Below, piece by piece: positions 373 to 35,028 of a stretch of 64,000 nt of DNA (the first letter of the stretch is position 1; the number at the start of each line of letters is the position of its first letter). Origin of the DNA: Owenia fusiformis (lineage: Eukaryota; Annelida; Polychaeta; Sabellida; Oweniidae); contig CAIIXF020000002.1 in the NCBI GenBank assembly GCA_903813345.2, positions 19,608,455 to 19,672,454 on the forward strand. Direction: 5' to 3'. The notes below the pieces were generated by a model that did not search any database, was not told the DNA's origin, and worked only from the letters and a program-made list of their open reading frames with translations. Made by a program: the position numbers and the translations under genes.

Positions 373-3300
373 GCTGATCAATTAGCTGCAGGCCTGATAG
401 CTCTTGGTGTAACTAAGGGAGATAGAGTTGGTATATGGGCACCCAACTGTTGGGAGTGGATATTGGCTCAATATGGTACAGCTAGGGCAGGGATTATATT
501 GGTAAGCTACCACTAGATTAAGAGATTTATTCACTCTACAGCTAGGGAAGGGATTATATTGGTAAGATACCACTAGATTAAGAGATTTATTCACTTTACA
601 GCTAGGGCAAGGATTATACTGGTAAGCTACCACTAGATTAAGAGATTTATTCACTCTACAGCTAGGGCAAGGATTATACTGGTAAGCTGCCGCCAGATAT
701 AGGGATTCATTCACAAAAATTCAAGGCTCTACTGGAATGAGTAAAATTTGGTTTACTGGTTTAATACTGGTAAGTCAATTTTCAATTTTCCTGAGACCAT
801 ATTTATCATGAGATTCACATATGTGTTCTTCTGAGGGTATACCAGCAGCCGTTTAGATGAAAGGTTTAACATGATGTATTGTTACGCATGTTCCTCTCAT
901 TTGTAAGCTCATATCAGACATCCGTAAAGATGTTGCGACCTTAGATTTGTCAAAATGTTATTGTTATTGTTAAATTGAGAAAAATGCAACAGATACAGAC
1001 AATATGAGTAGTCTTTAGATATTGTTTACCTTAAGTAGATTGTAAACAAATTAACATTAGCATTTCAAATCAGGAAAAGTTGTTTACTTAAATTATTTAA
1101 TTTATAATTTTATAGGTGAATATCAACCCAGCTTACCAGACAATGGAACTTGAGTATGTCTTGAAGAAAGTTGGTTTGAAAGTCCTTATAACAGCAGAGA
1201 AATTTAAGACACAAGACTACTATGAGATGTTGTTTCATATCAACCCAGAACTTGCCTATTCCCCCGCTGGTGATTTGAAAAGTCGCAGGTAGTAACACTG
1301 ACTCATTGAAATATTTATTTTATATAATCTTTGAAACCCATCAGTTCAAAATTGGTTATTATAATTCATTAATAACATTTTTAGAAGTTGTATGTACAAA
1401 TACCTACCAATACCTAACAAGCAACTTTTCAAAGATAATTTCCTGGCATGTAAAATTTTACAATTTAACGAATAGAATGTAAAATATTTTACAGCTTGCC
1501 TGAACTGAAGACAGTTGTCATGATTGGTGAAACAAAACATAGGTAAGTCATCAGGAACCAAAACAGTAGAGCCATAATGAGGCTAGATGTTGTTGTTAGA
1601 CACCAATGCCACCATTTTAGTTGAAAAATCATCTGAATAGATATATTTCTGTAAAATTTTGGCTGACCACATATATAATATAGAGCTATTTGTATTGTAT
1701 GGTATGGTATGGTATTGTATTGTATGGTATGGTATTGTATAGTATGGTATGGTACTATATGGCATGGTATGGTGTTGTATTGTATGCTATGGTATTGTAT
1801 TGTATTATATGGTATGGTATGGTATTATATGGCATGGTATGGTATTGTATTGTGTTGTATTGTATTGTATGCTATGGTATTGTATTGTATGGTACAATAT
1901 GGTATGGTATGGTGTTGTATTGTATGCTATGGTATTGTATTGTATTGTATGGTATGGTATGGTATTATATGGCATGGTATGGTGTTGTATTATATGCTAT
2001 GGTATTGTATTGTGTTGTATTGTATGCTATGGTATTGTATTATATGGTCTTATATGGTATAGTATGGTGTTGTATTGTATGCTATGCTATTGTATTGTAT
2101 TGTATGGTATGGTATTATATGGCATGGTATGGTGTTGTATTGTATGCTATGGTATTTTATTGTATGGTATTGTATTGTATGGTATGGTATGGTATTGTAT
2201 TGTATGCTATGGTATGGTATTATATGGCATGGTATGGTGTTGTATTGTATGCTATGGTATTGTATTGTATGGTATGGTATGGTATTGTATGGTATGGTAT
2301 TGTATTGTGTTGTATTGTATTGTATGCTATGGTATTGTATGGTATGGTATGGTATTATATGGCATGGTATGGTGTTGTTTTGTATGCTATGGTATTATAT
2401 TGTATTGTATGGTATTATATGGCATGGTATGGTGTTGTATTGTATGCTATGGTATTGTATTGTATGGTATGGTATGGTATTATATGGCATGGTATGGTGT
2501 TAAATTGTATGATATGGTATTGTATTGTATTATATTATATGGTATAGTATGGTATTGTATGGCATGGTATAGTGTTGTATTGTATGCTATGGTATTGTAT
2601 TGTATGCTATGGTATGACATGGTATGGTGTTGTATTGTATGATATGGTATTGTATTGTATTATATTATGTGGTATAGTATGGTATTATATGGCATGGTAT
2701 GGTGTTGTATTGTATGCTATGGTATTGTATGGTATGGTATGGCATGGTATGGTGTTGTATTGTATGCTATGGTATTGTATTGTATTATATTATATGGTAT
2801 AGTATGGTATTATATGGCATGGTATGGTGTTGTATTGTATGCTATGGTATTTTATGTTATGGTATGGTAATTGCATTGTGTCATTTCAGGGGAACCATGA
2901 CTTTTGCTGAGTTGATGCAGGCTGGAACTAATAAGCAGTTGGCCTCTGTCAGAGACATGCAAGCTAAACTACAGTTTGATGACCCTATTAACATACAGTT
3001 TACATCTGTAAGTTCTGTTAACATATGTACAGTTAACACAGTACAGTTTACTGTAAGTACAGTTTACTGTAAGTACAGTTTGCATATGTTAGTACAGTTT
3101 TCATATCTAAGCGCAGTAAAGATCAACATCAATTTTATTGAGTCTTGCCCATGTGTTGGGGGGAAAATCATCTCAGTAACTTTTCATAAATCATGAGAAC
3201 TCATTGTTACACAAAGGCTGAATTTTACCTTTACCCTGGAATAATTTTAACTTTTCATATTGCCTCTTGTACCACATATTGTGGTTTTGCAGTCTCATAC

Positions 3301-6300
3301 TTTCAGGGTACTACAAGGACACCAAAGGGTGCAACATTGTCCCATCATAACATCGTAAATAATTCATACTTTCAGGGTACTACAGGGACACCAAAGGGTG
3401 CAACATTGTCCCATCATGACATCGTAAACAATTCATACTTTCAGGGTAATACAGGACACCAAAGGGTGCAACATTGTCCCATCATAACATCGTAAACAAT
3501 TCATACTTTCAGGGTAATACAGGGACACCAAAGGGTGCAACATTGTCCCATCATAACATCGTAAGCAATTCATACTTTCAGGGTAATACAGGGACACCAA
3601 AGGGTGCAACATTGTCCCATCATAACATCGTAAACAATTCATACTTTCAGGGTAATACAGGGACACCAAAGGGTGCAACATTGTCCCTTCATAACACCGT
3701 AAGCAATTCATACTTTCAGGGTAATACAGGGACACCAAAGGGTGCAACATTGTCCCATCATAACATCGTAAACAATTCATACTTTCAGGGTAATACAGGG
3801 ACACCAAAGGGTGCAACATTGTCCCTTCATAACACCGTAAGCAATTCATACTTTCAGGGTACTACAGGGACACCAAAGGGTGCAACATTGTTCCATCATA
3901 ACACTGTAAAAAATTCATACTTTCAGGGTACTACAGGGAAACCAAAGGGTGCAACATTGTCCCATCATAACAACATAAAACATTCATACTTTCAGGGTAC
4001 TACAGGGAAACCAAATAGTGCAACATTGTCCCATCATAACATCGTAAGCAATTCATACTTTCAGGGTAATACAGGGACACCAAAGGGTGCAACATTGTCA
4101 CATCATAACATCGTAAACAATTCATACTTTCAGGGTAATACAGGGACACCAAAGGGTGCAACATTGTCCCTTCATAACACCGTAAGCAATTCATACTTTC
4201 AGGGTACTACAGGGACACCAAAGGGTGCAACATTGTTCCATCATAACACTGTAAAAAATTCATACTTTCAGGGTACTACAGGGAAACCAAAGGGTGCAAC
4301 ATTGTCCCATCATAACAACATAAAACATTCATACTTTCAGGGTACTACAGGGAAACCAAATGGTGCAACATTGTCCCATCATAACATCATAAAACATTCA
4401 TACTTTCAGAGTACTACAGGGAAACCAAAGGGTGCAACATTGTCCCATAATAACAACATAAAACATTCATACTTTCAGGGTACTACAGGGAAACCAAAGG
4501 GTGCAACATTGTCCCATCATAACATCGTAAAAAATTTATACTTTCAGGGTTCTACAGGGACACCAAAGGGTGCAACATTGTCCCATCATAACATCGTAGA
4601 AAATTCATACTTTCAGGGTATTACAGGGACACCAAAGGGTGTAACATTGCCCCATCATAACATCGTAAACAATTTATACTTTCAGGGTAATACAGGACAC
4701 CAAAGGGTGCAACATTGTCCCATCATAACATCGTAAACAATTTATACTTTCAGGGTACTACTAGGAGACTAAAGGCTGCAACATTGTCCCATCAAAGCAT
4801 TGTAAACAATTCATACTTTCAGGGTACTACAGGGACAACAAAGGGTGCAACATTGTCTCATCATAACATCGTAAACAATTCATACTTTCAGGGTACTACA
4901 GGGACACCAAAGGGTGCAACATTGTCCCATCATAACATCGTAAACAATTCATACTTTGTTGGTATGAGACTTGGATACCATCAAAGGTAATAATGTACAT
5001 ACGGTACATAAGCATGCTTTAATGGTGATAATAGTGACCACTGGCCGTTATGAAAATGAATAAAAGTATGGTTATTAGTACATGTTCATAAGAATGATTG
5101 ATGAAACTACACATATATTTTTTTGATGTTCATATGTTAAAAAACAGTTTAGTGACCCATATGTTGGAGAGATTGACTTGATTAAGATTGGCATAGTCTA
5201 ACTTGATTAGGATTGGCATAGTCTAAGCTCCTTAGGATGTAATACATGTATCTTGTAAAACAATTTTGTAAATAAATGAAATATTAAATTAAAGGGTGTG
5301 GTTAGACTAGTAAATGGTTAGTCTTACTTGTATTTTAGTTCACACAGGATATGTGCGCCAGTGCCACTTTACCATTGCTTTGGTATGGTTCTAGCCAGTC
5401 TTCAGTGCATAACGCATGGTGCTACAATTGTCTATCCATCTCCTAGCTTTGAGCCTGAGGCAGCATTACAAGCTGTACATGATGAAAAGTATGTACCGTA
5501 TAGGTTTACAAATAGTGTGTATAGGTTTCATATTTCTTGTGGGTCTATGCTTGTAAAAGGTGAAGACCATTATACGTTATATCACCCCTTTTTCTGTACT
5601 GTAAGGTAAAAAGTAACAAAGGGCAAACTAAATCTAGATAAGAGCAAAAAATATGCATAAACTCTCACATTTGCACGCATTTAAATAATAAGAATATTCC
5701 TTTCGTTTAATAGAATTCAGACAAAAAATAATTCCACTGGAAAGAGCGCTGATTGTTTTTATTTGATCCTTTCAGATGTACATCATTGTATGGGACACCA
5801 ACCATGTTCATAGACATGCTAAATTTACATGATTTTGACATCTTCAACCTGGAAAGTCTAAGCACAGGTAAAAGATCAATTTTGTTTATTTACTATAGAC
5901 TATGTGTGCGTAGGGGCCCACCTCCTACCCCCTAGGATGGGCTCAGAAAAAAATATTGGCCTAAAACTTTTAAGGACCCTGTTAGTGGCCATTACCTGGC
6001 CTTTTTGGGCCTTATTTTTTAATTTTAGGTCAAATCACTTTGTCATTATCGCCGATTACCTTCAATATTTCCACTAGAGACTGCTGGATATCGATCTAAA
6101 GTTATACATTATTTCTAATTTGATGAGAGATCATCATTATTCGTGCAAAAGTCGTGTAAAAGTCGAGAAACATTAAAAAGAAACCAGAAAGTTCACGACC
6201 TTGACATGCGCAGAACATCTGCGCAGTAGCTTTTGAAATTTCTGAATGCCGATAAAGAACAATTCCTTCATTCATTATGGACTATTTGGAGACAATATTA

Positions 6301-9300
6301 GCATGGTATGGTGTGGGAAGCACCCATCGATAGATATGTATCGAGAGGATGCATAGAATTACAAAACGCGTCGTGTTTACAGCAGTTTTAGGGTAAGTAC
6401 TCTATTATCGCCCGCTCCTGGATTTTGAGAAATATTTTTTTCCTGATATATTCTTCAATTCTTGTTGATTCCTCGATGTTTCTTGAACTTTGTGAAGCGG
6501 GGTGGGCGCTTATTAGAGAGTGGGCGGTAATTACAGAGAATACGGTACTAACTTTGGATTTATATATTTTACTGTTTACTGTGTTGAAGTTACTAAGTTA
6601 ACAATTATGCTGCCCTCTATATGTAAACTGGATTAATAGGTATCAGTGATCTCCCCATCATTAGAGCAAGTGGGCACTGCATCCCTTGAGATTTTAAAAA
6701 TAGGCTTGCACCCCCACCTGAGAATTCATTTGCAGCCACTTGAAAATGAGAAAAAGCATGAAAAATAGGCATATTTCAAATGGAATAAATTGAGAAATTA
6801 AGAATTTTGCACCCACCTGAGCGAAATCCTTGGGAGAACACTATGAAGTGCTGCCCTCTTTTTAATCTATTGACTACCCAGAGTGATGAGATTTCTTTTC
6901 ACCTCAGAAATGACCTTGAAATCCAGATCGACCTGATAATCGGTCACAATTTTTTTCACTAAGGTTGCTCCAATTTACTCAAAAAATTTCTTAAAATGTG
7001 TAGAAATTATCTCTGTTGTCTAATTCTATTAATTGAGCATCACTTGTTGAATATGTAAGAACTAAATTGTCAAAAGCTGGTAAAAATGAGAAATTCTCTG
7101 GTTTGATCTGATTTTAGAGCCTGAGATTCAAGGTTTATGTAACAAAATTCAAATACACATAAATAGGGGAACGCTTTTTTTATCAGTTATCATAATTCCA
7201 AAATGGTTTGATAAGGCCTAATATGACTTAATTAATGAGAAAGAATTGCCTTTGACCTTGTAATAATTACTAGACTGATAAAAAAATGGTTCAATAAGGC
7301 CTGAGATGACTTCATTAATGAGAAGGAATTGCCTTTGACCTTGTAATAATTAACAATTGATTACTACAATAGTGCAATGTCTAGACAGATAAACTGAATG
7401 ACTTGGCCTTAATATTGGATTTGCCTTGATTGAGACCAAAATGATAATAAACAACAGCACTTAATAGGTCAACATGGCTTGATTCAAGATAAACCTTTTG
7501 CTTAACACAAACACCAAATGACAGTTATTGTGACCTACTGTGACTTTCTAGCTCTGTCAAGGGCCCTTATGTGTTAGCAAATGACAGTTATTGTGACCTA
7601 CTGTGACTTTCTAGCTCTGTCAAGGGCCCTTATGTGTTAGCAAGTGACAGTTATTGTGACCTAATGTGACTTTCTAGCTCTGTCAAGGGCCCTTATGTGT
7701 TAGCAAATGACAGTTATTGTGACCTACTGTGACTTTCTAGCTCTGTCAAGGGCCCTTATGTGTTAGCAAATGACAGTTATTGTGACCTACTGTGACTTTC
7801 TAGCTCTGTCAAGGGCCCTTATGTGTTAGCAAATGACAGTTATTGTGACCTACTGTGACTTTCTAGCTCTGTCAAGGGCCCTTATGTGTTAGCAAATGAC
7901 AGTTATTGTGACCTACTGTGACTTTCTAGCTCTGTCAAGGGCCCTTATGTGTTAGAAAATGACAGTTATTGTGACCTACTGTGACTTTCTAGCTCTGTCA
8001 AGGGCCCTTGTGTGTTAGCAAATGACAGTTATTGTGACTTACTGTGACTTTCTAGATCTGTCAAGGGCCCATATGTGTTAGCATTATTATAACTTTTGGA
8101 ATTGATAAGACTAATGTGGCGTGTGACAATGTGACAATTGTTTTAATGCAAAATAAAACTAAGCCTAAGCCTGATGTATTATATTCTGAAGGCTGTTTAT
8201 TCTAGGTCTAATGGGTGGTTCTAACTGCCCACCTGAGATCATGAAACAAGTCATAGAACGCCTACATATGCCTGATGCCACAGTATGTAATTGCTTCAAA
8301 TGCAGTGCATCCTGCAATGCAGGATCCTGCAGTTCATTGCTTCACATGCAGTGCATCCTGGCTAAACCCTGTTTACATATAAAAGGAGCACAAATTGTTA
8401 ACTCACATGGGTGTCTGCTACTGTAATCGCCCACTTGTCTGTCCGTCTGTCTGTCTGTATGTTCGTCTGCCAATCTGTCAACACATTGGTGGCAGATTTG
8501 CATAATCCTCCGCAACAAATCTAATAGTTTTACTATAAAATTATTTCATACTTGTCTCTTAAATGAAACTTTAAATGGTGGCCATTTTATTGAAGAAAAT
8601 CAGGTCGTCAGCCTTTTTTGGTGAATACTTTACAAGTTTTCTATCAATTTGCTTGACATTGTGCATTTACATTACTTTATAGGTTAAGAATAATGTCTAA
8701 ACGTTTTTGCTAAACATGTAGCAAAGATTCAAAATGGCCTTCACTTTAATTTTCAAAATATCACTTTTTATGTTATAAATCCAAAAGTGGGGCATTGATT
8801 TGCTTGAAACTATACAGGCAGCTAAATGTATAGGTAAACAATAAATGTTTAGAAGCTTTGATGAAATAGCTTGTAGAATTTAAAAATGGTCGCTTCTTTT
8901 ATTGCTGAAAATCATGTTTTCAGCTAGCTGTTTGGTCTCAAGTTAAAAAGTATTTAATCAATTTGCTTGAACTTGTACAGCTATCATATTGATGTTAATA
9001 TAATGTTTACATGTTACTACAAAACATGTCACAAGGATTCATAATTGCTGCCACTTTTATTGTTATATGTTATGAATCCAAGTTTTACATCGCAAGCTTT
9101 GCTTGAAATTGGGTGGGTGGGGAGCAGGCATCTTGATAAATTCTTGTCTCCAGGATTTTAGCCAAACCATTTGAGGGATCCATCTGAAATTTTCAGGGAT
9201 GTTCCTACATATATGAAATTTTAGACATGCTAAGCTTTTTGGCATTCTGGGTAAATTTTCTTAAAAGGTGGACATTTGGATTTTCCGTCCTGAAATCTTG

Positions 9301-12300
9301 TCTGTGTAAATTAATTGTCTGATCACCCCTCATGTATTTAAAAGCTCTTATTTCTAGGTATAATGGGTGGTTCTCCTTGTCCACCTGAAATCATGAAAGA
9401 AGTTGTTGAGCGTCTTCATATGCCTGATGTCACAGTACGTAAAACAGTGAAACCCATATTAGTGAACACCTCAAGTCTGTATCTAGAAAACACCCCTTCT
9501 CAACACATATTCCACTACCTTCTGTATAAAATTGCCCACCTGAGATAATGAAACAAGTCGCTCAGCGTCTTCATATGCCTGATGTCACAGTACGTAAAAC
9601 AGTGAAACCTTTCTTAGTGAACACCTCAAGTATGTATCTAGTAAACACCCCTTCTCAGCACATATTCCACTACCTTCTGTATAAAATTGCCCACCTGAGA
9701 TAATTAAAACAAGTCATAGAGTGCCTACATATGCCTGATGTCACAGTACGTAATCAGTAGCTTTCTGATTAGGAATTGCTTCACATGCATCCTTAACCTG
9801 GCTAAACATATATAAAAGGAGCACAAATTGTTAGCTCACATGGGTGTTTGCTATTGTAATCACCAACTTGTCTGTCTGTCTGTGTATGTTTGTATGCCCT
9901 TCTGTCAACACATTGGTGGCTGATTTGTATAATCCTCCGTGACAAATCAAATAGTTTTACTATAAAATGTGTCTACATAAAGTCTTCAATTATCTCATAC
10001 TTGTCTCAAAAATGAAACTTGCCTCATTTCAAAATGGTGGCCATTTTTATTGTAGAAAATCAGGTTTTCAGGTCTTTTTGATTAGTACTCCACAAGTTTT
10101 GTATCAATTTGCATGACATTAGTGCAGGTACATTGCTTTATAGGTTAAGAATAATGTCTAAAAGTTTTTGTTAAATATGTAGTAAAGATTCAAAAAGGCC
10201 ACCACTTTAATTTTCAAAATATCACTTTTTATGTTATAATCCAAAAGTATTGCATTGATTTGCTTGAAATTATACAGGCAGCTAAATGTATAGGGAAACA
10301 ATATCTAGAAGCTTTTATGAAATAGCTTGTAAACTTTAAAAATCGGTCACTTCTTTTATTGCTGAAAATCATGTTTTCAGCTAGCTGTTTGGTCTCAAGT
10401 TAAAAAGTATTTAATCAATTTGCTTGAAATTGTACAGCTATCATATTGATGTTTATATAATGTTCACATGTTACTACAAAACACGTCACAAGGATTCATA
10501 ATGGCTGCCACTTTTGTTGTCATATGCTTTGAATCCAAGTTTTACATCGCAAGCTTTGCTCAGTCTGTCGGCCGACGTTATAAACCCATTGTTGTTTACC
10601 GGTTTTTAAAAAAAAGTGCGTAGTAATAATTTCGGCATTTTCGAACTACTTGTTTACGCCCGATTGGGCATGGTTTTTAACGAGTTGTTTAACAATCAAG
10701 ATGTTACTTTAATAAAATAAAAATAGTATGCCTATAATAATTAGTACCTCCTCTTTCTAATGGTGTTTTTTTCAACTGCCCAAAACCACGGGAAATGGGT
10801 ATAAAATGCGTTGGAAAAGGGGCTACTTTTAACATTTTTGAACTTCGACTTTGTCTGATTAATTCATAGAATAATTTATTTTTATGATTCATTTTAGATC
10901 GTACAAAAGTTGGATAATGTATCGAAAATCATGCTCATGAAAAAATTATTTAGATTCACTTTAAATCCAACGATCGTTACAGTTTTTACTAAACCTCAAA
11001 CTTAAAACGGCTCATTTCTTACACAAATAACGCGTTTGACGACACAAATCACTGGTCTAGCTGTAGTTTCTCTCTCTAAAGTTTAGGCATTTCGCACACC
11101 AAATAAATATTGTTATATAAAAAATATGTATCACCCATTATTCGCGGAATGTATTTAATTTCATGTATACGAAATATTTATCTGATCCAATAACGATTAA
11201 GTATTCATTTTTCAATTTAAAAATACGAAAACTGCTAAAACGGGGCTAATATTGGGACAAAAATTACGTGTGACGTAATTATTTCTTAAATCATGCATTT
11301 TCGTCATAGAAATCTGGAATTAAATTTAAGGATGAATATTTAATGCAAAATATATATAAGACGACCACAGCGTGAGCAATATATCGAATTTTAGGCACAC
11401 AAAAAACAAGAATGATTCAATTAAACATGAAAAATTGTTACAGTTTTTACTATAATGAAAACTCTAAAATGGCGTCATTTTAGCCCAAAATCCAAGTTGA
11501 CGACATAAATAGTTCATGAATGTATTTCAGTTGACATCAAGCTTGAACATGAAATTCGCCCATTGAAATTCCAAATAAAACGATCGAAATGACATAAGTC
11601 TCGTAAAGGCGTATTGTATAATGTGTACGCCAAATATCAAGTTATGAAATTGAAAAATCAATCTACAATAAGACACTTTGAAAATAGTATTAGGGTTTAA
11701 AGATACGGACACTTTTGAACAATTAATCTATTCTAAAGACGGATCGTTTTCATTTCTTGAAGACGAATGTTCGAAATTCGAATTCAAGATGCCCATTTTG
11801 TGTAGAAAATATGTTTTCATCCGATTACATTACACATGTTCCAAATAACAGCTAAGAGAAAAAGCGTTGTGATTGGATGAAGTAGATGGATTTGGTACAT
11901 TTGTTTCCACTATGGGCGCATTTAAAACGGCGCCATATTTTACGGCACAATTTCTGCTGGCCTGCGAATCTTTTTTAGCCCGTCATTCCAATCGGAATGA
12001 TGATTATATGTATAAATTCCGTATTTTTAGAATAGACAAGAGTGTAATTTTTTCCTCTTTCAGTTAAAATATTCTCATTTATGATATGGAATAGTTCACA
12101 CCTCATGTACCATGGTACTAAACATGTAATATGGACATTAAACTCACGAACACGTACTGTGCTCCAATTTTGACTGATTTATGTAAATCCAAGAGAATCG
12201 TCTTAGCTTCTTATGCGCGCTGTAAATGAATTTTTATACTAGTCTACATAATATTTTTCTTAATTGTTTCTCATTAAATTCGAAGTCATATAATAGAAAC

Positions 12301-15300
12301 AAAATCGTATTTCAAATATTTTCCAGCTGTACACCAAACACCCACCAAATTAGATCATTATGTAAATGTTTGGGAGGAAAAAGAACAGTACTATATGGCT
12401 CAAATGACATTTAATGTCATGATGTATGTCCATTTTTGTGATATATTTGTCATGATCACTCTGTACTGAACTCAATAAGGAACTAGAAAATGGCAACTCC
12501 ACGGAGTAGCAAATCCCAACGAACATTATATAAATCATCAATCTGTACAGTCACAAAATAATATTTACCATCTACTCTTACCTTCAATAAATATATTAAA
12601 TCATTGTAGCATCATGTAAATCTAAGAAATGGCGAATTTCTGCTCTAGTCAGCCATTTTGAATTTTCAAAGACGCAAATCAGAAAAACAATGCCATAATT
12701 GTGATCTACTCTGAAATACCTTCAATTTGAGTATAATATAGCCATACTTTTAAGAGATCAGAATATAATTGCGAAATCACGCATTAGGCGGCCATTTTGA
12801 TTTTTTAGGCCCCAATCAGAAAAACGCTACGATATTTACAATTTACTCTAAATTGCCTTTCATTTGAGTATAATAAAGCTATACATCTCAAAATTAACGC
12901 AAATTCCTGTTTTCTCAACCCCCATTTACGGCCCCTGGGGGTCAGGGTGAAAAACTCGGGATATATATGTGAAATAGACAGATGTTAATATACTGCCAAA
13001 ATTTCAAATAATAATATTTATTATTTTGGTTTAAAATGAAAAACGTAAGATTTTTGTGAAAAATTCCCGGCATTTTCAAACTGGCGGCCATCTTGAAGAA
13101 AAATTTGCGTAAAACTATTCACCAATATACATCTTTCCATTAAATATGAAGAAAATCTGTTGACTAGTATTCGAGTTATCCTCCGGACAGACGGACGAAT
13201 TCAAGTTCCAACATGAATACCAGGATAAGTTCTCTTGGCCTCCAGTGTGACTGACGGACAGACGGACGGACGGAGGGCTTTACTATATCCCTACAGAACT
13301 TCGTCCGTTGGGATAATTAAGATACAATAAGTATAGTAACATATACGTATTTACATTGCTTTATTTCTTTTGGTGTAGGGCATACTGATATAGGCCTACA
13401 ACATACAACTTAATTGCAATACAATAGGAAATATGTCACAACTACTTGACTCTATGAATATAGCATTTAAAGCATTAATACAATGTGAAATTAAAAATGA
13501 TATCATGTTGTGTTGCATAAATCATTAATTCAGGATCGGCAAGCAAATTTAGTTCTGTCATTTATTCAATTCAATTTATTTCATAATTCTTATTTAATAA
13601 TATTTTATTAATATTACTTGTATAATCTTATTTTATCTAATATCATATCCATGTCTAATACCTAATAACCCAACATAGAGGACCAGGGTAAGTATGGCAA
13701 GTGATTTTAGAAGGTCATTATATCTTTCACCATGAGTACTTTCTCAAAACCTGTAAAGTGGAACACCTCTTTAAATGGAACACCTCCACAAGTGGAATTG
13801 TTGGAACTTCACTTGAAAGAAAGCACATTGTTTTAAATAAAAATTAGTACCGTGGGTACTGGGCTCACATGGTGTTGCTCAAAAGTGAATGATGGCTAAA
13901 ATGACAGAAAATAAAAAAATGGATATGATGTTTTTGCTGATTTTTTGTAACAAAATTATTTCATACAACTACTCTTTACAAAGACATGGCTTTTACAATG
14001 TAGGACATCTGGAATTATTCGTAAAGCTAGGAAATGGGCCAAAAGTGAATTTCACAAGACAAAAATGGTGGCCGTTTTGAAAATAGGCGAGCTTTTGAAG
14101 CAGAAGTCACACACACTACCCTACCACGTGACCACGTTTAAAATGGAAACAGGGTACAGCTAAGTTGCAAATGGAGGACGTGGGTTTAATTCCATATTTC
14201 TGAACGTAAAATACATTTTACATTTATTTCTAGTGTTCTACCAGACATAGAATTGATTCATCAAGCAGTTTGTAGAATATTGTTGGCAAAAAAACCCTAT
14301 AGGCAAAGATAGATAATAGTGGGCGCAGTGAAGCAAAACTCAACACAATACACGATACATTTCAGTAAATCTGTCAACGTACAGGGAGCATGTAAGTTTC
14401 CCTTCGAAAATGTTACATTGATATGTAACAAAAAAAAACAGTGAACTATTATTTCAACTGCGTGTCATCGTGTTATAGGTGGATACGTTTTCTAGTATGT
14501 TATTCAACTGTATTTTTGTGAATTTGAATTTGAACAAAACATTCTAAATGATCGGTTTTTGAGGACGGTAGTGAATTATACCATTCAAGGGGTTATATAG
14601 AACGATTCTTCACATGTAGTTCAGGCAATTTTAATTATTCTGAGTAGCGGATAGCCATTAATACTGATAGCGGATAGTCATTTATATAATTATCATTAAC
14701 GTCTTAACATTTAATTTTGTTATTTTATTTCAATTTGATACCCTAGTAACACGTATAATCTAGCGTTCTTGTTTATTTTATGACTAAAATGCATACGACC
14801 TGAAAGCCTGTGTCTAAATCTACAAAATAATGTTTACTTTATTTGGATTAAATAACAATTGATGACACCCCAAAGCATCAACAGGCGACCTTTTTAGCAT
14901 TACTTTCACTGTTTGCAGCGTAAATGTACATGAGGTCGGAACATAGTATGTCTGTATAATCAGCTTACTTTCTCGCTCCCTGTACTATTGAACAATTTAC
15001 ATTCCTTGTACCCTGTATTGATCAACTTTTGCAATTGTGTATCGTGTACTATGACATATCAAATATTTTAAAATTTAAAACGATATTATTTTCATTCTTT
15101 CTATAACTATCATATAACTTGGAACATCGACTTCACTATTGCACCACTGAAGTGTAGCAAATAGCAATATTGACTCACTCCGAGCACCAAACGTATTAAC
15201 CTTTTGAGTAAGCAGTCGATATACTCAAAAGCGACCTGATTGAAAGCCAAAAAATTCGCGCATGCGTGATCGAGGTAGGGTAGTGTGTCACAGGGGTTTT

Positions 15301-18300
15301 TTCTTTATTGATGCTGAACAAAAATATTCTAAAACAGGAATCCTATCTACAGAGGATTTAAAAAGAGCCAAGTGTTGACAGACATTGGTTTTTAAACTTG
15401 CCACTATCTTGGACTGACTGAAAGACAGATGGACAAATAAATGTTAACTAAAATGGCTGAAAAAAAAATCGGATATGATTTTTTGCCGATTTTTTGTTAC
15501 AAAATTATTTCATACAACTACAAGATTTACTTGGGATAGCTATGGCCTAGTATAAGTTAATAGGCATATATAAACAGGCCGCCCCCCCCCCCCCTACGAT
15601 GAGTGTGTGATGGGCACCGTGTGTGACCAACGGAACGTCAGTTATCATAGAATACAGGTGTATTTTCATAAGGAAAATTTTTATTTTGTCAAATCATGTA
15701 TAGCTCAATGAATTGCATACAATATTTTAACACGTAGCAAGAATGACCACCTGGTCATGCAACATCGACCTTTGGGGAAGATGTATGCGGTTCCAAGTAT
15801 TTCATAGCTTATATTCATATTTGTGTATTATACCTACTCTTATCAATTCTCAGATCTTACTTATAATGTTATTGGTGTTTATTAGAGTTCTATTTTGTCT
15901 ATTGTTTATATTTTGATACGCATCCAATAATACTGTAATATATAATTATTATATTATCTCCAATCAATGGAGGGAAAATAAATCTAATAATAATAATAAT
16001 ACACTGACATGGATTTTACAATGCAGGACACCTGAAATTATTTTGAAAGCTAGGAAATGGGTTGAAAGTGAATTTCGCGAGACAAAAATGGGGGCCATTT
16101 TGAAAATAGGCGAGCTTTTTAACCAGGAGTCATAGGGGAGTTTTCTGTATTTATGTTGAACATAAATAACTTAAAACGGGAATCTTATCGACAGAGGTTT
16201 TCAGGCAAATGGTCCAAAAGTGGATTTCGCCAGACAGATGGACAAATCCATGTTAACTAAAATGGCTGAAAATAAAAAAAACGGATACAATTTTTTGCTG
16301 ATTTTTTGTAACAAAATTATTTCATATAACTACTCTTCACATTGACATGGATATTAACAATGCAGGACACCTGACATTATTTGTAAAGCTAGGAAATGGG
16401 TCAAAAATGAATTTTACGAGACAAAAATGGCAGCCATCTTGAAAATGGGTGAGCTTTAGAACCAGGAGTCGGAGGGGAGTTTTCTGTATTGATGTTGAAC
16501 AAAAATAACTCAAAACGAGAATCCTATCTACAGAGGTTTTAAAAATGTGCCACTATTGTTGATGGACAGACTGACGGATGGACGCACGCACGGGCGCACG
16601 GACAGACAAGTGAGTGATTGCAAAAGCTCACCATGTGAGCTAAAAACCACTGCCCTTTGGCAAGAAAGCACTAATGGATTAAAAATCCAAAATCACTTGC
16701 CATACTGTACCTGGTCCTTTGAAACAGACCCAAACATAATTTTTTATCATACAAAAATCGAGTAAAAAGGACCTGTTTATAGAGTGACAAAACACCATGG
16801 TAGTGTACAAGGTCAAATAATTTTTTTTAAATTTCATGAGGCATGTTTTAGCAAAAAAATGTTCCTTTAACCCACCTAGGAGAAAAGTTGAGCTTGTTAA
16901 AGTTACTGACATGCCCAAATTTTCAGTAGTTTTGACTTGAAACGATAAATCCTTGTGTTCTTATAAAATGAATTTCTTCATTAATAATGGTTCAATATAC
17001 TTAAAAGTAAGCTCAAAATACTGGGAATTGAATAATCTTTCCAATAATACCTTATACACATATGATTGTTTATTTCAGAGATCATAAAGACAACACATTA
17101 CATTTATTTGAGATCTAATGTTATATAATGTGTCCATACGAGGGGTGATTCAAAAGTAATGGACAAAATTTTATAGGCATACTAAATTTCACCCAATCAG
17201 TCTAATTTTTTCACAGTGAATAGATCAATCAATTCTCTACTTTGTGTCGAATTCTCATTTAAATGCATTTGAAATTGTTTCAGCTATGCATAACCATGGT
17301 AACAAGGGTAAGCATGGGTGGAATTGGTTTTTTAATGATAATTGAATGTTTTTGTCATTTTTGCTTGATTTCGTTTTAATGACTCAATTACCACACATGA
17401 TATGTCTAACAAGCATGGTAATGCAATTGTCAAGCAAGACTCACATGCCCATGTGTTTGCTGTTGAGTTCTAAATTCAGCAGCCAATTGTGCTATAACAT
17501 CACAATGATATTTCTAAGAATGATGAGTCACAGTGAGTCAGAAAGTAGATCAGACTCTTAGACTCACACACATCCAAGAAATGTCTAATTTACAACAAAT
17601 CAAAGTTAAGCAAAGGATTGTTATTGAATATTTGGTAGCTACTGGAGAGACAAGGCAGGCAGTTGTCAAGAAAATAAAAGAGACACATGGAGACAAGGCC
17701 TTGTCAAGGCAAGCCATTGAGCGATGGTACAAAGACTTTAGTGAAGGGGATACGAGAGTCTTAGATCTAAAGCGATCTGGAAGGCCCAAGACAATATCAA
17801 TTTATTTCGATTATTTTTTGTATAACGCATGGAAAGTAACTTTAAAAATTGAGCAATGTCATTAGTGTTGTGATAATAACGTCCCTTATACCTATTTATT
17901 ACAGGTCATGTAGACCATGGGCATGTGAGTCTTGCTTGACAATTGCATTACCATGCTTGTTAGACATATCATGTGTGGTAATTGAGTCATTAAAACGAAA
18001 TCAAGCAAAAATGACAAAAACATTCAATTATCATTAAAAAACCAATTCCACCCATGCTTACCCTTGTTACCATGGTTACGCATAGCTGAAACAATTTCAG
18101 TTGCATTTAAATGAGAATTCGACACAAAGTAGAGAATTGATTGATCTATTCACTGTGAAAAAATTAGACTGATTGGGTGAAATTTAGTATGCCTATAAAA
18201 TTTTGTCCATTACTTTTGAATCACCCCTCGTACTTTAGGCAGCCAGTTTGAGGGAAGAATCAGAAAACAATATAATAATTGTGATCTACTCTAAAATTCC

Positions 18301-21300
18301 TTCAATTTGAGTATAAAAATAGTCTACTTTGAAGAGATGGGTGAAATATTGTGAAATTCCCTATTAGGTGGCCATTTTGAATTTTCTGAGGATCAAATCA
18401 GAAAAACAATACCATTATTGTGATCTACTCTGCAATGCCTTCAATTTGAGTGTAATATAGCCATATAGCCTTATTTTTGGAAGTGGTCGGGAAATTGTGA
18501 AATCCCAATTTAGACAGCCCCTTTGAATGTTCTTAAATCTAAATCGGAAAAACAATACTGAACTTGAAATCTGTTTGAACTAATCTTTCATTTTAGCATT
18601 ACAGAGCTATACATGTACTGAAAAAGATCTCAAAACAAACAAAAGTTCCAGTATTTCCGACCCCATACACATACCTAGGGGTCAGGCTGAAAAACACGTA
18701 ATATAGGTGAAATAGATGTATTTTGTGAATTTACTTCCAAAATTTCAAACAGAAATATTCACCACTTTGCTTAAAAATTTTAGATTTTCACAAAAAATCC
18801 TGACATTTTAAAGTAGTAGCCATCTCGAAAATTGTTTGTTTTGCTTAAAACAATTACCAATACACATCTTTCCACCCAATGTGAAAAAAATCCATCCACT
18901 AGTATCTGAGTTGTTCAATGGATGGACTGGGGGCTCACTATATCCCTACCAAACCTTGTTTGTTGGAATTAAGTTAACTGTCCCAACACTACTGTCATAT
19001 GGTCGGTTTAGACTGTTGAAGCTGACACAGGAGGGGAGTAGGAAGACTGTTGTATTCATAGTCAATGTTAAGAAATTTCTAGACAGCAACAGAAGTCCAG
19101 CTGATCCCACAGGATACTGTTTGACCCTCTTGCTCCGAAGTCAAAGTATGCTGTCATCAAAACATCCTTTCAATAGGCCATTCAGTTGTTGCTTTTACAA
19201 AATCTGAAAAATGAGTAGTCAAGTATCAGAAGTCTGCAATTTTACAGTTTGAATCTTTCTGCTTAGATCTATCGAGTGGAAATGATTCAGGAAAAGGCCA
19301 TCACAACAAAACAAACATGCACAGCACCTTCAATATGATTAACAGTTTTGGTGTGATTGCCTTTTTCAATTGTTTTTTGAAAGATTTGGTCCTGTCTACT
19401 TATCAGTGTGCTCAATGGCATTTCCATTGAGCCAAAGCATTCATTCTGGAGGTTGTTGACCATAATGCACCAAGATGAGATATTGCATAGAAAATCAATT
19501 AGTCAGCATTTAGATCTGGGGTATCATTTCCATTACCCCAAAATACCATTTAGGTTGTAAAATAGAATGTGCTAATGAAGGTTAAAACAGAAATTATTTA
19601 CCTGATATTATGAAGGCCTGCATAAAAAGTTATTGTGAAATCCATTGTCTTCTAACAGCCACAGTACCAATTCATTCCTGAAACTGAAAATTATTATACA
19701 AATATTAAATAATACATAATTTTAAAGTTCGGAATGGAATCCAAAAATTCTATTATAAAATATATGATCATTTTAAGCAAGGAAAAGAGAGAACATTTAT
19801 GTTACAGCAGCAGAGAAGATTCAATCTATGTATTAGCTAGAATAAGAAGTTATGAGACAAGAATGATGATTAATAGTCTATTTCTACACAATTTTTAATC
19901 AGAGTTGAAAATGTTTATCTTTTTAACCCAAATGGCAATGGGTTAGGTACAACACAATGAATTTGAATTCGTGTTTTATCTCAGTGAAATTTACCTGCGC
20001 CTTATACCATATACTACATCTGACGCTTGCATATGACCCTAAACTTCCAAAATGCATGGTGAATATAATATAGACTAGAATTTTCTTATTTTCGTCCTAT
20101 GATATCTCTAACATTTACAAATAAAAATATCAAGAAGCTAGACCAAATCTTTCTGAAACAATGAAAATATCAGTTTGCTCAAATTTCATCACTCTCATGT
20201 TCATAGGCCCAGGTTAAAGTATTAGTAAGTCGAATATTATATGCAAAAGTTTGAAAACACTTTGAAGAATGTTTAAGTAAGTTTATTCATTACTTCAGAG
20301 AATATTTATCCCATTGAGACTTTCGACTAGTATCCCCTAGTCTTTTATATAATATATAAACCAGAGAGATGAACTTACATAGAACCACTTTGAAGAAGAT
20401 TTTGGACAGATTTGGGAATACATGTACAATTTGATACCAGTTAGGAGAACTCGTACCTGAGACTGCGAGATTTTTAAATATTTCGACTGAAGTGGGGCAC
20501 CTGTGAATATTATATTGGACTTAGCGGATTTTCTCGCATATACGCCCCCCTAAATTTAGGCCCATGGGCCAAAAATCGAATATAGTACGCTTATACGCCC
20601 ATGGGCCTATAAAAAATGACTATTTATTGATTTTTTCAATAAATTCAAGAGTATTTTGTCACTGGCAGATCGTTCTGTCGTACTTTGTTTCATTGTATTA
20701 ACATTCATTAACAACTTAACATTCCATTGTATTCATCAGCTCTTCTCACCTTTACGCCCACTGGGCCAAAAATCGAAAGTAGTACACTTATACGCCCATG
20801 GGCGAAAAATAAGAGGTAAAATAACAGACGAAATTGCCCCTTCTTTCAGTTATACGCCCAGGGCTTATATGCGAGAAAATCCAGTACTTATACTAAACTT
20901 TGACCTGGGCCTATGTTCATGCTGTACCTTATCAGGCCCGTAGCAAGGCCCCTCTTTCAAAATTATGCAGTTTTCACCAGTTCAAGCACTTTTTGCATGA
21001 AATTTTAACCAAAACTGTCAAAAAGCTCCCCCTTGCACATGCTATCTATTGCAAGACTAACGCCTGGTGTAACCGTCACCATGTTATTCGGTGTTTTTTA
21101 AGTAGCGCAAGGATCCTGTCATGACCGTGGTAATGTTAAAGCCTAATATGACCGTGACAATGCTTATAAGGCCTGTCATGACCGTGGTAATGTTAAAGCC
21201 TGATATGACCGTTACAATGCTTGCAAGGCCTTTCATAACCGTGACAATGCTATATTATATTGCAAGGCCTCTCATGACCGTGGTTGTATTTAAAGTAGCT

Positions 21301-24300
21301 TGAGAACACTGTAATGACAATTTTTCTTCGTGTTTAACTACCTTAAATATGTAAATAAAGACTACTAAAAATGTGTATTAATTTCACAACGAAAACCTAA
21401 TTTTTACTCATAAATAATTTGTGAACAAACTATATCTCTACTCTCATTCAAGGAGCTTCGATTCGAAAGCATATACTTTCTATAATGATCAATTAATAAG
21501 ATTTATCCATAAAAAATACCAACAGCAATGGGCGAAACATGAAGGTCATTAATGTCATATAAAGGTTGCGGTCGCGCCAGGCTTACACTACCACGGTCAT
21601 GGCAGGCATTTTAATATAATACAGCATTGTCGCGGTTATACCAGGCTTTCACGATAACATTACCACGGTCATGGCAGGATCCTTGCGCTACTTAAAAAAC
21701 ACCGAATAACATGGTGACGGTTATGCCAGGCGTTAGTCTTACAACAGATAGGGTCTCCCCCTTGACAAAAGCTCCCCCTTGGTAAAACCACTCCCATTGG
21801 TAAAAAGTGTCTACAGGCCTGCATATCCCAAACAATCAACTGTCAAGCTTACTTTTTATAACATGGGAAATCCTAACTTCAGCAAGTCCAGCTGTGCCAT
21901 TTATTTATGGTGAGCGCTGCATGTGATGATAAGGTAACAGAATTACATGTACAGTGGGGGGCATAAAGAATTACAAACCCTATGGAAATTACATGTTGTC
22001 GCATATGTAATAAATTCTTACCTCAGTGTATTCAGTGCTCTATTTTCTCCGTCATAGTAAGTCCAGATATAGTGGAATTTGTGTCCATAATGACAAATAA
22101 GAACTTAAAAATTTGATGTGGAATTCACATGTTAATGCAGACTCTTCAAATGTTGAGGTGATTTTGGAGCCAGATTACGCCGCAATGTGGGTTGGCTCCC
22201 AGAATGCAACATGACACGTGTCAGCTTTCAAAATGCCATTCCGCCGTTTTGAAATACGTCACGAATAAATAAGGTTACTTGGTGTTGCATTCTGGGAGTC
22301 AATCCTCCTTGGATCACAAACATGGCGATTCATGAAAACATTAGTCCGATTTGGTAGGGATTTATCCATCATTTGCAGGTATGAGGCTTTGGATTCATTT
22401 ATTGTGCTACTTAAAGTGGATGGGAATTATTTTTCTACCACTTGGGAGAGTTTGATACATGAAACTTAGAATTTAGCTCATTGTGACAACTTTTGAGGGT
22501 TGAGATTTATTTTTGTCCCCCACTTTATATCTGACACAATTGGTGATGCTTGCTCTTGATGTTCCAACATGTTGTCATCCCATGTACTTTAGTCTAAAGG
22601 TCCGTTGACTTGTCATCCATTCCTCTCAACTCAGCATAATTCTAAAAACACCTTCCGTCCGATTTGGAACTCTAAATTTTTAAATCTTTCACTTTCAGCC
22701 TCCTAGTAGTCACATTGAAATGAACAAGACACTTCTATATGTCTGTGATATGTAACTTAAGTTTCTACATATTTACTGATGTAGTATATACATCAAATAT
22801 ACGAGGTTTATTGAATCTAGGTCTAATCTAAAACCAATATATTTTCTTTTTTCTTTCGAGAACCGAACAAACAAAAATCCACAAAATTGCACTCACGTTA
22901 GTTGCCCTTCCACTTCCGGGTACGTACAGGGTAAGTCAATGAACCTGTCATTGATTATTTATATTCTAACGGCTCTTATGACAATTAAAACCATTTTTCT
23001 TAAATTAAATAGTTTTAGATTAAGAAAATTATTCAAATTAATACTGTTTAAATTGCAAAATAGACAAGTACTTTGACAGGGCTTTGTTTGTTTTGTATAA
23101 AACGGCACAATATTGGTTTCTCACTCCGTATAGTTTAAGAGGTCAATATGTCATGGTCAATTGTTCTAAAAATACAGCATCAAACATCACAAAAGTAAAT
23201 ACTTTTCCAAATAAGAATATAATCTTCAGCTGTGAATACATTTAAGTCTACATTCTTCTGTTTTATAATGAGAAACATATGTTGAAAGTGATGACACCAA
23301 GTTTTACTTTAAATGACAAATCCGACGTCAAAACGGAATCAATATTTTTCACAAATTTTAAACATCATTTTCGAATAAAGTTTTATTAGTTGTATTAACG
23401 TTTTATTTTAGAAAAAAATCGCTACAATATTTTAAAAAATATTGAAGATACCACACGTGAAATTTGAGATTGATCTATAAAAAATTGACAAATTGTTACA
23501 GTTTTAAGCCAAAGAGGTACGCGACCAAAAATGGCGTAAAAATGAAAGCGAATCACGTCGTAGGGAATGCAGTCAATTTGCTTTCCTGATTTAAATGATA
23601 ATATCTTGGTATATCCTCATTACATTTATTTCTCAAAATTGCATAATTTGAAACCCAAGAATAAATACTACAAATTGTGAAAATTTAAGACTCATTGAGA
23701 ACGCACTTGTAAAAGAAAAGCAAATTATATACCTTGTTTACGTTATCCGAGAACGTCTTTGATGACGCCATAAGCTCAAAAATGGCCATTTTTAAAAAGT
23801 GACTCACCTAACTTTGAGATTTACGGAAACTACATTGAAATGATCATAAATTCCCAATTTTTTCACATAAATTAAACCACATAAGGGAGTCAATATTCAG
23901 AAAGTTTGAGGAAAAAATATCCAAAACTGTATGATCGTTACAGTTTTTGCTAAAATGTTGAAAAAATAAGATTTTTTTTGTCCAAAAAAAGTTTATCGGC
24001 CGGCGCGATTTTTCTACCTCCAATTCTTTTCAATGTGTGATTTAATTTAATTCATTCTATAGATCTAGATATAATCTACCATCACACCAAATATCATAAA
24101 GATATGCAAGAATATGAATGCGCACGAGCCGCTCAACTTTTCATGTATACACTGAATTTTTTCTTGAGAATGCCGTCATAGAATATAGTCCCGCGGAAGA
24201 CCACTAACTTTTTTTTAATAATCACCGCTTTTGTGCCGTCGGCCTCCTAGCTGGCTTGAAATCGGGTGGGTGGGCAGGCATCTTGATAAATACTTGTCTC

Positions 24301-27300
24301 CAGGTTTTTAGCCAAACCATTTGAGGGATCCATCTGAAATTTTTAGGGATGTTCCTCCATATATGAAACTTTAGACATGATTAGCTTTTGACAGTTTGGT
24401 AAATTTTAAGGTGGACATTTTGGATTTTCCATCCAGAAATCTTGTCTGTGTAAATTAATTGTCTGATCACCCCTCTTATATTTAAAAGCTCTTATTTCTA
24501 GGTATAATGGCTGGATCTCCTTGTCCACCTGAAATCATGAAACAAGTCGTTGAGCGTCTTCATATGCCCGATGTCACAGTATGTAAAACTTAGTGAACAC
24601 CTCTCTCAATTCTGTGTCTAGTGAACACCCCTTCTCAGCACATATTCCACTACCTTCTGTATAAAATTGCTTCTCTGTAGTGAACATTTACCTACAGTGA
24701 ACACATTTTTGTGGTTCCATAGGTGTTCAATGTACACAGGTTTTACTGTAGAGGTTGCTTTCTGCGGCACATACCCAATCATGCCCATATCACGCTTTTG
24801 AATTGACATGTAATACAATTTTCTTGCTTTGTGCATATGCACGGTTGCCTTTAACTTACTGTATTCTCTCTAAAGAGTGCACAATTCCAATGAGTGTGTG
24901 TGCAACTTTTATGTTGGATATGGTCTTAAGTAAGCGCAGAATTTAATGCATTAGTTTTGCTTATTTACATAACAAGATTTTGATTGATAATTATATTTAA
25001 TGAAATGAAAGAATGAAATACAGGAGCTGTAGAGCTCTGTATAGTATGTATTGGTGATAAAAACTGAAAAGATAATTGGCAATATTTTTTTCTTAATTTT
25101 TTTGTATGAGCACTTATTGGAGAGAATATGGTACCTTGTTCCATTTAACTTTCATTCTTCAAAAATACTTCAATATAATAACTAATATTTTATAAGAATC
25201 ACACTTTTAGAAGATTATTGGTGTCAACGCGGTAGCCTGGCGTCTTTAAATAAAAAATGATGAAGCTACACATTCATAAAATTTTCCCATGGCATATGGC
25301 ACCTTCTTGGCTTCAAAAGAAACGAGCATCATGGATCCCCCCACAACCTTTATTTATTAACCTAACTTTTGTGATTACATTCTGGTTTGATTCCTTGACA
25401 ACATAACAATATACTAAATGATTTAACTACTATAATACAAATGTATGTACGGGTATAAGCATCACCTGTGGTGCCACCTGTTATTAATAATATGTGTACA
25501 CATAATGATTAAATGTATGAATAAAAAACAAAAAAAACTGGATTGCTTCCTTGTATGAAAATATGGAGCTTACCAGACTTTGAGATACTGGTTATTTTTA
25601 AGGTGAAGATTTTGTGTTCATGAAGGGACAAATCCAGATTTTATCCAACACTGGCTTGATGCCACACACACATGCAAATAGTTTAGATGTAAATTTTGAT
25701 GAATAGATGAATCGTTTATTTTATTTATTTTTTATTTCAAAGAAAAAACATGTTAAAGCAATTGCAAAAACAATACAGTTACATGGTAAACGTACACTTT
25801 ACAATACAGTATTGGTTAAACGTTAGTATTTAAGAAATTTTATACCATTGGCAATTTAAAATAAATAAAAATAAATAAATGAATTATTTGTGTCAATACC
25901 ACAAAAGCACACTTTGCCATTTTGATTTTATATGCAAGCTTAAAATCTCTATTACCTGAAAAGGCTTACCTTTCCATTACAGATACAGTAAAACCTGTCT
26001 AATATGAACACTACTAGGCCCAGCCAAAAGTGTTCAGACTGGCAGGTGTTCACAAATGAGGTCTCTAATATATGAGTCAATGAAAGGTAACAAAATTAGG
26101 ACCAAGAATAAGTGTTCACATTGAGAGGTGTTCCATTATACAGGTTTTACTGTAGGTAAAAGTTCCAATTATTTAACTGAGTGGGTTTGGTTCTTTCCAG
26201 GTGTGCTATGGGACAACAGAAAACAGCCCAGTTACATTCCAGAGTAATATAACTGATCCTGTTGAGAAACGTGTAGGGACCATAGGAACACCTGCGGCGC
26301 ATGTAGAGGTGAGCTTTCTAAATTGTAGGGAAGTTTAGCTACATGTTTTCACAAGGGTTTGTACATGAATATTAGATGTGTCAAGGGTCAGATATTCATT
26401 GGGTCGGGTCAGGCCACAAAAAAGTGTACTGACCCGACCCGAAATTGAAAAGTAGTTGTTCGTGACCCGACCCGAGCCTTCCGACCCGATATTCGGGTCA
26501 ACTTCGGGTCGGTGTGACACCTCTAATGAATATGTAGAGCTTTGATCCTCTTGGGATAAGTTGTGGTTGTGCAAATAGGTAATTGAAAAGAAAATTGAAA
26601 AAAGCTGTAGGTAGAAACTGACAATGTTCTTATCATGTCAATGTTATAATTATGTGTACCGGTAGATGTAATTCATTTATGAAAATTTGTCTTTGATAAC
26701 ATTTAACCTGGCAAAAATTGTAAGTTGAAATTAAAAAAATTGTAGGTGAAGATCATTGATGAAGATGGGAATGTGCTACCATTGGGGACACCTGGTGAGC
26801 TGTGTACACGTGGTTATGCGACCATGTTGCGTTACTGGAATGATCATGAAAAAACAGAGGAGGTCATTATGCCTGATCGCTGGTATAGGACTGGGTAAGA
26901 ACTGGAAAGCTAGAAATCGCTAGCATTGTTACTAGTATTACAAAATAGTGCTTAAAAGTGTCCTATAAAGTATAAAAATGGGCATGCTTCCTGGCGCTGA
27001 TAAAATATAAATATAGAATTATTACGATTGTCCAATGCCACTGTATTTTCTATTAACTAGTTGTTCTATTGTGTGAGCAGTCAAGGATGTTGTATCCAAT
27101 TATTTAACCTCAGTAGTTATAACAAAACAGTACTAAACAAAAAAAAACGCAAATACACCCATTTAAAAAATTAACTAGTCTAATCAGTGAGTGTAAACTC
27201 TGTGCTATACGTAGCCAAAAAGGGCGGACACTTTAAGTTCAGTGATATAGCTATGATGTCAGTGTCTTTGCTATAAGATAGGCGATTAGGCGTAGCATGA

Positions 27301-34170: not shown

Positions 34171-35028
34171 TAATTTATTTTTCAAACCTCTTAATTCTTA
34201 TTGGCCAGATTTACACTAAAACCAGTGTACATTGAATGTTTTTTGCAGACAAAAATGTTCAGTGAAGCTAGGTGTTCGCTACAGGGAGGGTAATTTAAGG
34301 ACGATGGCAACTATAAAATTCATCGAGAACACTGAATTATCTCAACATTAAACATAATTCAACAGAGTGTGTGTGGAGGACATGTCTACAAGAGACAGGT
34401 GTTCACTAGAGAGGTGTTCACTACGACAGGTTTTAATGTAGTTCATCCTGCGTGCGTATAACCACATATCTCATGTACTATGATGTCTTATTGTCTTGTA
34501 GATGTAATAAAGCTCGTAGAACTGATCATGCCAAGCCATGGAAAGATACCGAGGGATGACATCATACAGTTCAAGAATTGTCGTCTACTTCGAGATCATT
34601 AATTTATTTTTCAAACCTCTTAATTCTTATTGGCCAGATTTACACTAAAACCAGTGTACATTGAATGTTTTTTGCAGACAAAAATGTTCAGTGAAGCTAG
34701 GTGTTCGCTACAGGGAGGGTAATTTAAGGACGATGGCAACTATAAAATTCATCGAGAACACTGAATTATCTCAACATTAAACATAATTCAACAGAGTGTG
34801 TGTGGAGGACATGTCTACAAGAGACAGGTGTTCACTAGAGAGGTGTTCACTACGACAGGTTTTAATGTAGTTCATCCTGCGTGCGTATAACCACATATCT
34901 CATGTACTATGATGTCTTATTGTCTTGTAGATGTAATAAAGCTCGTAGAACTGATCATGCCAAGCCATGGAAAGATACCGAGGGATGACATCATACAGTT
35001 CAAGAATTGTCGTCTACTTCGAGATCAT
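34171..35028 (+). repeat. 429-bp near-identical tandem duplication covering AMDHD2 exon 1
   Basis: 34171-34599 and 34600-35028 are the same sequence. The unit contains AT-rich DNA, the splice acceptor CTTGTAG and the first part of coding exon 1. The first copy ends inside the exon, so its frame hits TAA immediately; the second copy is followed by the rest of the exon. Near identity means very recent duplication or an assembly artefact. Confidence 0.93.
34528..34602 (+). pseudogene. Truncated duplicate of AMDHD2 exon 1
   Basis: ATG at 34528 starts the same [16 protein letters not shown] sequence as the real exon but stops after 24 codons at the duplication junction (TAA 34600-34602). If transcripts include it, this short frame would lie upstream of the real start codon. 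Confidence 0.88.

Follow-up and report, generated by a model that had tools for sequence, protein, structure and literature searches.

A gene of the annelid Owenia fusiformis that encodes an ANL-type fatty-acid CoA ligase carries three intact copies (e1, e2 and e3) of one 77-bp internal exon, and the explanation that we consider best for the locus as a whole, with a probability of about 0.5 on the sequence available, is that retained versions of this exon are used as alternatives, one per transcript. The gene lies in a 64,000-nucleotide stretch of contig CAIIXF020000002.1 (assembly GCA_903813345.2, positions 19,608,455–19,672,454 of the forward strand), hereafter the window, the coordinates of which are used throughout. 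Each copy enters in phase 1 and leaves in phase 0, fitting both the leftover G at 5867 of the constitutive exon F upstream and the phase-0 start at 26201 of the constitutive exon H downstream. The acceptors read TTCTAG before e1 and TTTCTAG before e2 and e3, and the donors GTATGT (e1 and e3) and GTACGT (e2). Identity over the 77 bp is 81.8% for e1/e2 (14 differing bases), 80.5% for e1/e3 and 93.5% for e2/e3, a likeness beyond chance in the 64-kb window (E ≤ 1.1e-15). With 77 mod 3 being 2, a single copy preserves the reading frame and zero, two or three copies shift it; the exon is phase-asymmetric, so only single-inclusion mRNAs give full-length enzyme. Searched as DNA against the genome (498 Mb in 525 contigs), e2 returned four matches, all within the host gene (e2, e3, e1 and a truncated copy, e4); a weaker fifth copy, e5, is absent from that list. 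An earlier note, made by reading the letters of this DNA, had described three copies of equal length and phase with both splice sites kept, differing at LMGGSN, IMGGSP and IMAGSP and at Q/E, I/V and A/V, and had pointed to the frame arithmetic of including exactly one; all of this was borne out. Its likening of the set to mutually exclusive exons holds as far as intact splice sites, phase, frame and constraint between e1 and e2 are concerned, but the copies are unequal, e2 and e3 forming a younger pair.

Historically, e1 and the e2/e3-type exon have both been kept as coding sequence under protein-level selection. Synonymous and nonsynonymous differences were counted over 25 codons and compared by Fisher test. 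The dN/dS check proposed in the earlier note revealed protein-level constraint for e1/e2 (8 synonymous and 6 nonsynonymous differences; dS 0.77, dN 0.11, dN/dS 0.14, P = 0.002), and e1/e3, a comparison that is not independent of e1/e2, gave a similar picture (9 and 6; dN/dS 0.12, P = 0.0005). As two sequences cannot tell which branch was constrained, we simulated their descent under assumed settings throughout (start from e3, equal branches, kappa of 2, omega of 0.15 on the e2 branch and seven branch lengths). The best probability of obtaining exactly 8 synonymous and 6 nonsynonymous changes without stops was 0.0312, 0.026 and 0.0175 for e1-branch omegas of 0.15, 0.3 and 0.5, respectively, and 0.0015 (6 of 4,000 runs) for a neutral branch; over a neutral branch of that length, the probability of escaping any insertion or deletion (indel) is 0.196, taking the indel rate from the introns of the duplicated units U1 and U2 described below. 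Under this model an e1 that was dead since birth is disfavoured about 20-fold, or about 100-fold counting indels. The host gene also provides an internal control: in a tandem array derived from its P-loop exon, 21 upstream units of 69 bp (two of the 23 upstream units, of 68 bp, were left out) carry 28 nonsynonymous and 5 synonymous distinct changes relative to the exon proper (per-site ratio, 1.8), showing that unselected exon pieces in this gene look unlike e1/e2. Given that exon pieces have multiplied elsewhere in the gene without a sign of selection, duplication alone is weak evidence.

Blastn revealed two additional copies that the earlier note had overlooked, e4 and e5, both of which begin at about exon base 18–20 and lack the acceptor and 5′ part of the exon. 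The 5′ part of e4 is e5-like and its 3′ part e2/e3-like, which suggests a chimera from unequal exchange between e2 and e5. Self-comparison of the window paired 8223–9103 with 9685–10560 (82.9% over 920 columns) and 9101–9535 with 24254–24670 (87.7% over 440 columns), and together these two matches represent a single tandem duplication (units U1 and U2, period about 1,462 bp), each match covering one half; e5 is truncated because the duplication breakpoint lies within the exon. Since the alignment of e1 with e2 extends beyond the exon by only about 17–27 bases on the upstream side and about 8 bases on the downstream side, these two are older than the e2/e3 pair. The order of events, as read from these alignments, is that e1 and e2 formed the older pair, that the tandem duplication of about 1.46 kb then copied e1 to e5 and e2 to e3, and that an insertion of about 13.7 kb later split e2 from e3, which now lie 15 kb apart with e4 and e5 between them. 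Divergence from U1 is unequal between the two halves of U2 (85/839 left, 29/412 right), which could reflect differences in rate or conversion. The insertion begins with 300 bases that recur at 30 other genomic sites (18 of them matching across all 300 bases at 92–98%), so its left part is dispersed repeat DNA; further in, a mariner-like piece (17137–18232) has 317-bp inverted repeats (17137–17453 and 17916–18232, 99%) that enclose an open reading frame with a Mos1-type helix-turn-helix domain (PF17906, E = 1.3e-6). By these matches, the insertion is at least partly mobile-element DNA. The stretches upstream of e2 and e3 (9101–9330 and 24254–24480) are themselves a dispersed repeat, the 230 bases upstream of e2 having 102 genome-wide matches among those listed, and by eye this repeat resembles 162-bp tandem units at 40274–41414. 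Nine 63-bp intron units (7515–8083, 97%) end about 120 bp before e1.

The host gene was delineated as a colinear exon series using tblastn with four plasmid-encoded AMP-binding proteins (L001–L004); these queries did not place the N-terminal exon(s) or a short exon that lies between 1288 and 2890. Joining the exons found with e3 yields a protein of 487 residues that matches PF00501 (277.1 bits; cut-off, 29.9) and PF13193 (71.3 bits; cut-off, 24.5), as well as solved ANL enzymes (128 distinct sequences at E ≤ 1e-20). Among 109 NCBIfam families, NF009233 (PRK12583, fatty acid CoA ligase family protein) ranked top at 667.7 bits, which is below its curated cut-off of 832; the joined protein is incomplete, lacking the exons that these queries did not place. 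The product is a fatty-acid CoA ligase of the ANL type; the name given to it in the earlier note, ACSF2, is putative and agrees with what is known of the human protein. Outside the host gene, no protein match exceeded 50% identity among the best candidates scored (56 matches at E ≤ 10 from 59 candidates), so no close second gene was seen; a second gene copy as the source of the extra exon was rejected on the same 59 candidates.

For residue comparison we used 27 loci from other genomes and plasmids, leaving out six loci of the animal's own genome; 23 of the 27 matched (L012–L015 gave no match), 22 of which are distinct because L011 equals L021. At five of the six variable positions e3 carries the commonest residue of these bacterial relatives (I 20/23, A 20/23, P 18/23, V 7/23 and V 12/23), the exception being Q (5/23, versus 9/23 for R), and e2 does so at four of the six. 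The truncated e5 carries V at the site where e1 has A, suggesting that the A of e1 arose after the tandem duplication. In alignment to luciferase structures the G/A and P/N positions fall on the GGAP loop, in agreement with the placing of the varied segment at the acyl pocket in the earlier note; the e1 peptide alone gave no match against the PDB. We take Gly316 and Ala317 to be part of the GGAP loop. Both are given as active-site residues in PMC5495494. With the changed residues on a loop that includes listed active-site residues, an effect on the pocket is reasonable, and judging from the alignment it is plausible that exon choice affects the acyl pocket.

Splicing signals were evaluated at the same exons. 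The donors of e1–e3 pair weakly with U1 RNA (−1.6 kcal/mol), as does that of exon E (−1.8), compared with −4.9 to −11.6 kcal/mol for nine other internal exons (in this calculation exons F and J start two bases early and exon D ends one base late, with the copies unaffected). Weak donors are usual for regulated exons. The acceptors of e1–e3 are ordinary. When docking–selector pairing was sought in 12 intron comparisons with 60 shuffles each, two stood out, both at e3. One of them, 24380–24400 with 7061–7081 (matched by 0/60 shuffles), was rejected as a dispersed repeat, because a word within it has 156 genomic occurrences, compared with 9 for the reversed control; the other, 24736–24750 with 25984–25998 (1/60), is 15 nt long and lies inside the last intron.

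We propose that an internal exon encoding the loop and helix that immediately precede the YGTTE motif was duplicated long ago, giving e1 and the ancestor of e2/e3, and that both versions may have stayed in use as alternatives, with at least two of them entering mature RNA and one being used per transcript; exclusivity would be enforced by frame and decay. The later duplication of about 1.46 kb would have provided a spare of each version—e5, truncated at birth, and e3, whole—before the insertion moved e3 away. Between the resulting isoforms, the pocket-facing residues at the G/A and P/N positions would change, and with them perhaps the substrate. The long maintenance of both e1 and the e2/e3-type exon as coding sequence makes the use of both the likelier reading, and mutually exclusive use is plausible. 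Several observations weigh against alternative use. The e2/e3 comparison is uninformative (3 synonymous and 2 nonsynonymous differences; dN/dS 0.17, P = 0.07), and the two exons differ at 5 of 77 bases while their flanking introns differ at 6.8–7.3% of aligned sites; exon divergence that matches the flanks gives no evidence of selection, and the pair is too young to judge, its differences not separating use from neutrality. An e1-branch omega of 0.5 performed only about 1.8-fold worse than 0.15, such that the simulation allows relaxed constraint on e1, or its recent loss. e1 carries the commonest residue at none of the six positions (L 1/23, G 2/23, N 1/23, Q 5/23, I 4/23 and A 0/23), and its A at position 24 occurs in none of the 23 bacterial relatives. 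Steric exclusion is ruled out by the great length of the introns that separate the copies (1,075 nt and about 15 kb), and the 12 comparisons yielded no docking–selector pairing at e1 or e2 and no convincing pairing overall. Finally, tandem exon duplication is common and mutually exclusive splicing is not, according to PMC9741552.

A rival account, which we regard as possible but rather doubtful, has one copy alone (most likely e3, or else e2) spliced in, with the other full copies being relics or spares from recent tandem duplication that are now skipped. The gene holds other unused-looking tandem pieces (e4, e5, the P-loop array and a repeat of the exon A donor), the e2 and e3 exons are as diverged as their introns, e1 stands out as the most atypical of the copies and a relaxed e1 branch fits the simulation; yet e1–e3 all keep length, frame and GT/AG, the e1/e2 dN/dS of 0.14 argues against either e1 or e2 having been dead since birth, and about 1.2 indels per pair would be expected in 77 bp at the U1/U2 distance (0.0155 per bp), although their absence between e2 and e3 is weak evidence. 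The copies might instead serve as poison exons, inclusion of two shifting the frame by 77 bases and sending the mRNA to decay, thereby tuning enzyme level rather than chemistry. Intron length would permit ordinary splicing of successive copies, but amino-acid-level selection on e1/e2 would be unexpected for a pure poison exon and there is no conserved non-coding excess around e2 and e3, where the flanks show the divergence given above; we consider this explanation improbable. Least probable is an artefact of assembly or haplotype, with the copies being alleles or misjoined pieces: tandem arrays, which are hard to assemble, abound in the region, but e1 and e2 differ at 14 bases and sit in unlike introns, e2 and e3 share only about 430 bp, U2 is split by the insertion with a clean apparent 3-bp target duplication, and no further copy turned up on any other contig in the genome-wide search.

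Table 1. Features of the ligase gene and its duplicated exon, in window coordinates.
Feature	Position	Strand	Evidence
Host gene, part within window (AMP-binding fatty-acid CoA ligase; end approximate)	373..29043	+	tblastn and domain matches
Exon F, constitutive, upstream of copies; 31 residues, then one leftover G	5776..5867	+	tblastn, phase
e1, intact copy, peptide (G)+25 residues	8206..8282	+	blastn, splice sites, phase
U1, left unit of duplication: spans most of e1, the intron and e2, plus the younger 155-bp repeat that holds e4	8223..9684	+	self-comparison
e2, intact copy, peptide (G)+25 residues	9358..9434	+	blastn, splice sites, phase
e4, 5′-truncated, 58 bp, inside 155-bp tandem duplication; donor GTACGT present	9532..9589	+	blastn
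U2 left half, with e5 and the intron after it; 85 of 839 aligned bases differ from U1	9685..10560	+	self-comparison
e5, 5′-truncated, 59 bp, e1-derived, 1-base insertion	9687..9745	+	blastn, self-comparison
Insertion, 13,693 bp, absent from U1, between U2 halves; apparent 3-bp target duplication GCT	10561..24253		self-comparison
U2 right half, with e3 and intron sequence; 29 of 412 aligned bases differ from U1	24254..24670	+	self-comparison
e3, intact copy, peptide (G)+25 residues	24502..24578	+	blastn, splice sites, phase
Exon H, constitutive, downstream of copies; phase 0 start; donor GAG/GTGAGC	26201..26308	+	tblastn, phase

Other tandem arrays were observed in the window. The P-loop exon array (from about 3295 or 3307 to 4957) comprises 24 units, the last being the exon proper and the 23 before it measuring 69 bp (21 units) or 68 bp (two), each made of the last three intron bases (CAG) and the first 66 exon bases (22 residues with the P-loop motif) and each ending in TTTCAG. 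It thus offers 24 tandem 3′ splice sites, of which only the last three (4754, 4823 and 4892) keep the frame owing to two 1-base deletions, and it had no match beyond the host gene in the genome search. Four 60-bp units at 477–714 duplicate the last part of exon A together with its donor (TTG/GTAAGC and variants), with an in-frame TAG after the first donor, and a 20-bp tandem repeat of 3.3 copies (27353–27417) extends into the exon J acceptor at about 27409. Elsewhere there are a 429-bp tandem duplication (34171–35036, 99%) and a complex array of related units of 124–284 bp (50215–52298). Among arrays in the host gene (period ≥20, merged by hand), 4 of 10 overlap an exon versus 2.0 expected (P = 0.10); this is not significant, and no hot spot is claimed.

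The closest precedent is provided by ACSL1 and ACSL6, in which cDNA demonstrated mutually exclusive exons for the fatty-acid gate domain (Soupene and Kuypers 2006, PMC1543647): in that study, a homologous exon pair in an ANL acyl-CoA synthetase encodes a short segment near the catalytic site and is proposed to alter activity. The segment switched there, with the motif D-x4-(Y,F)-LPLAH-x2-E, probably corresponds to host exon E (VPLYHCFG) rather than to the copied exon, and the present case differs in its three whole and two truncated copies and in its family. Among tandem duplicated exon substitution events, ligand-binding residues are reported to be conserved (Martinez-Gomez et al. 2022, PMC9741552). 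Like that class as described there, the copies are equal-length tandem homologous exons whose isoforms would differ in one homologous stretch by mostly conservative changes (here I/L, V/I, V/A and Q/E); unlike it, G/A and P/N changes hit the substrate loop. Ancient conservation and expression are typical of that class. Exons 3 and Ab of U2AF1 are reported to be duplicated and alternatively spliced, in a different protein and with a mechanism studied experimentally (PMC5224494). No report of mutually exclusive exons in ACSF2 was found in the literature searched, which excludes most subscription papers, and 'tandem duplicated exon' with acyl-CoA synthetase returned nothing there; mutually exclusive exons together with ACSF2 brought up one paper, PMC10752374.

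A bolder version of alternative use, which we regard as unlikely on the present sequence, would have two or three isoforms with the loops LMGGSN, IMGGSP and IMAGSP made by mutually exclusive splicing, with the P-to-N and G-to-A changes kept by selection; gate switching in ACSL1/ACSL6 would then have an independent parallel that belongs to another acyl-CoA synthetase family and affects a different site of the ANL fold. The in-frame P-loop acceptors could also add one or two P-loop units. The locus allows a comparison, within one gene, of exon copies kept by selection with exon pieces that selection has ignored. Should two or more copies be in use, a single gene would provide acyl-CoA ligases that differ in their active-site loops, amounting to a natural mutagenesis experiment on a loop that lines the ANL pocket and to a second case, beside ACSL1/ACSL6, of splicing that retunes an acyl-CoA synthetase.

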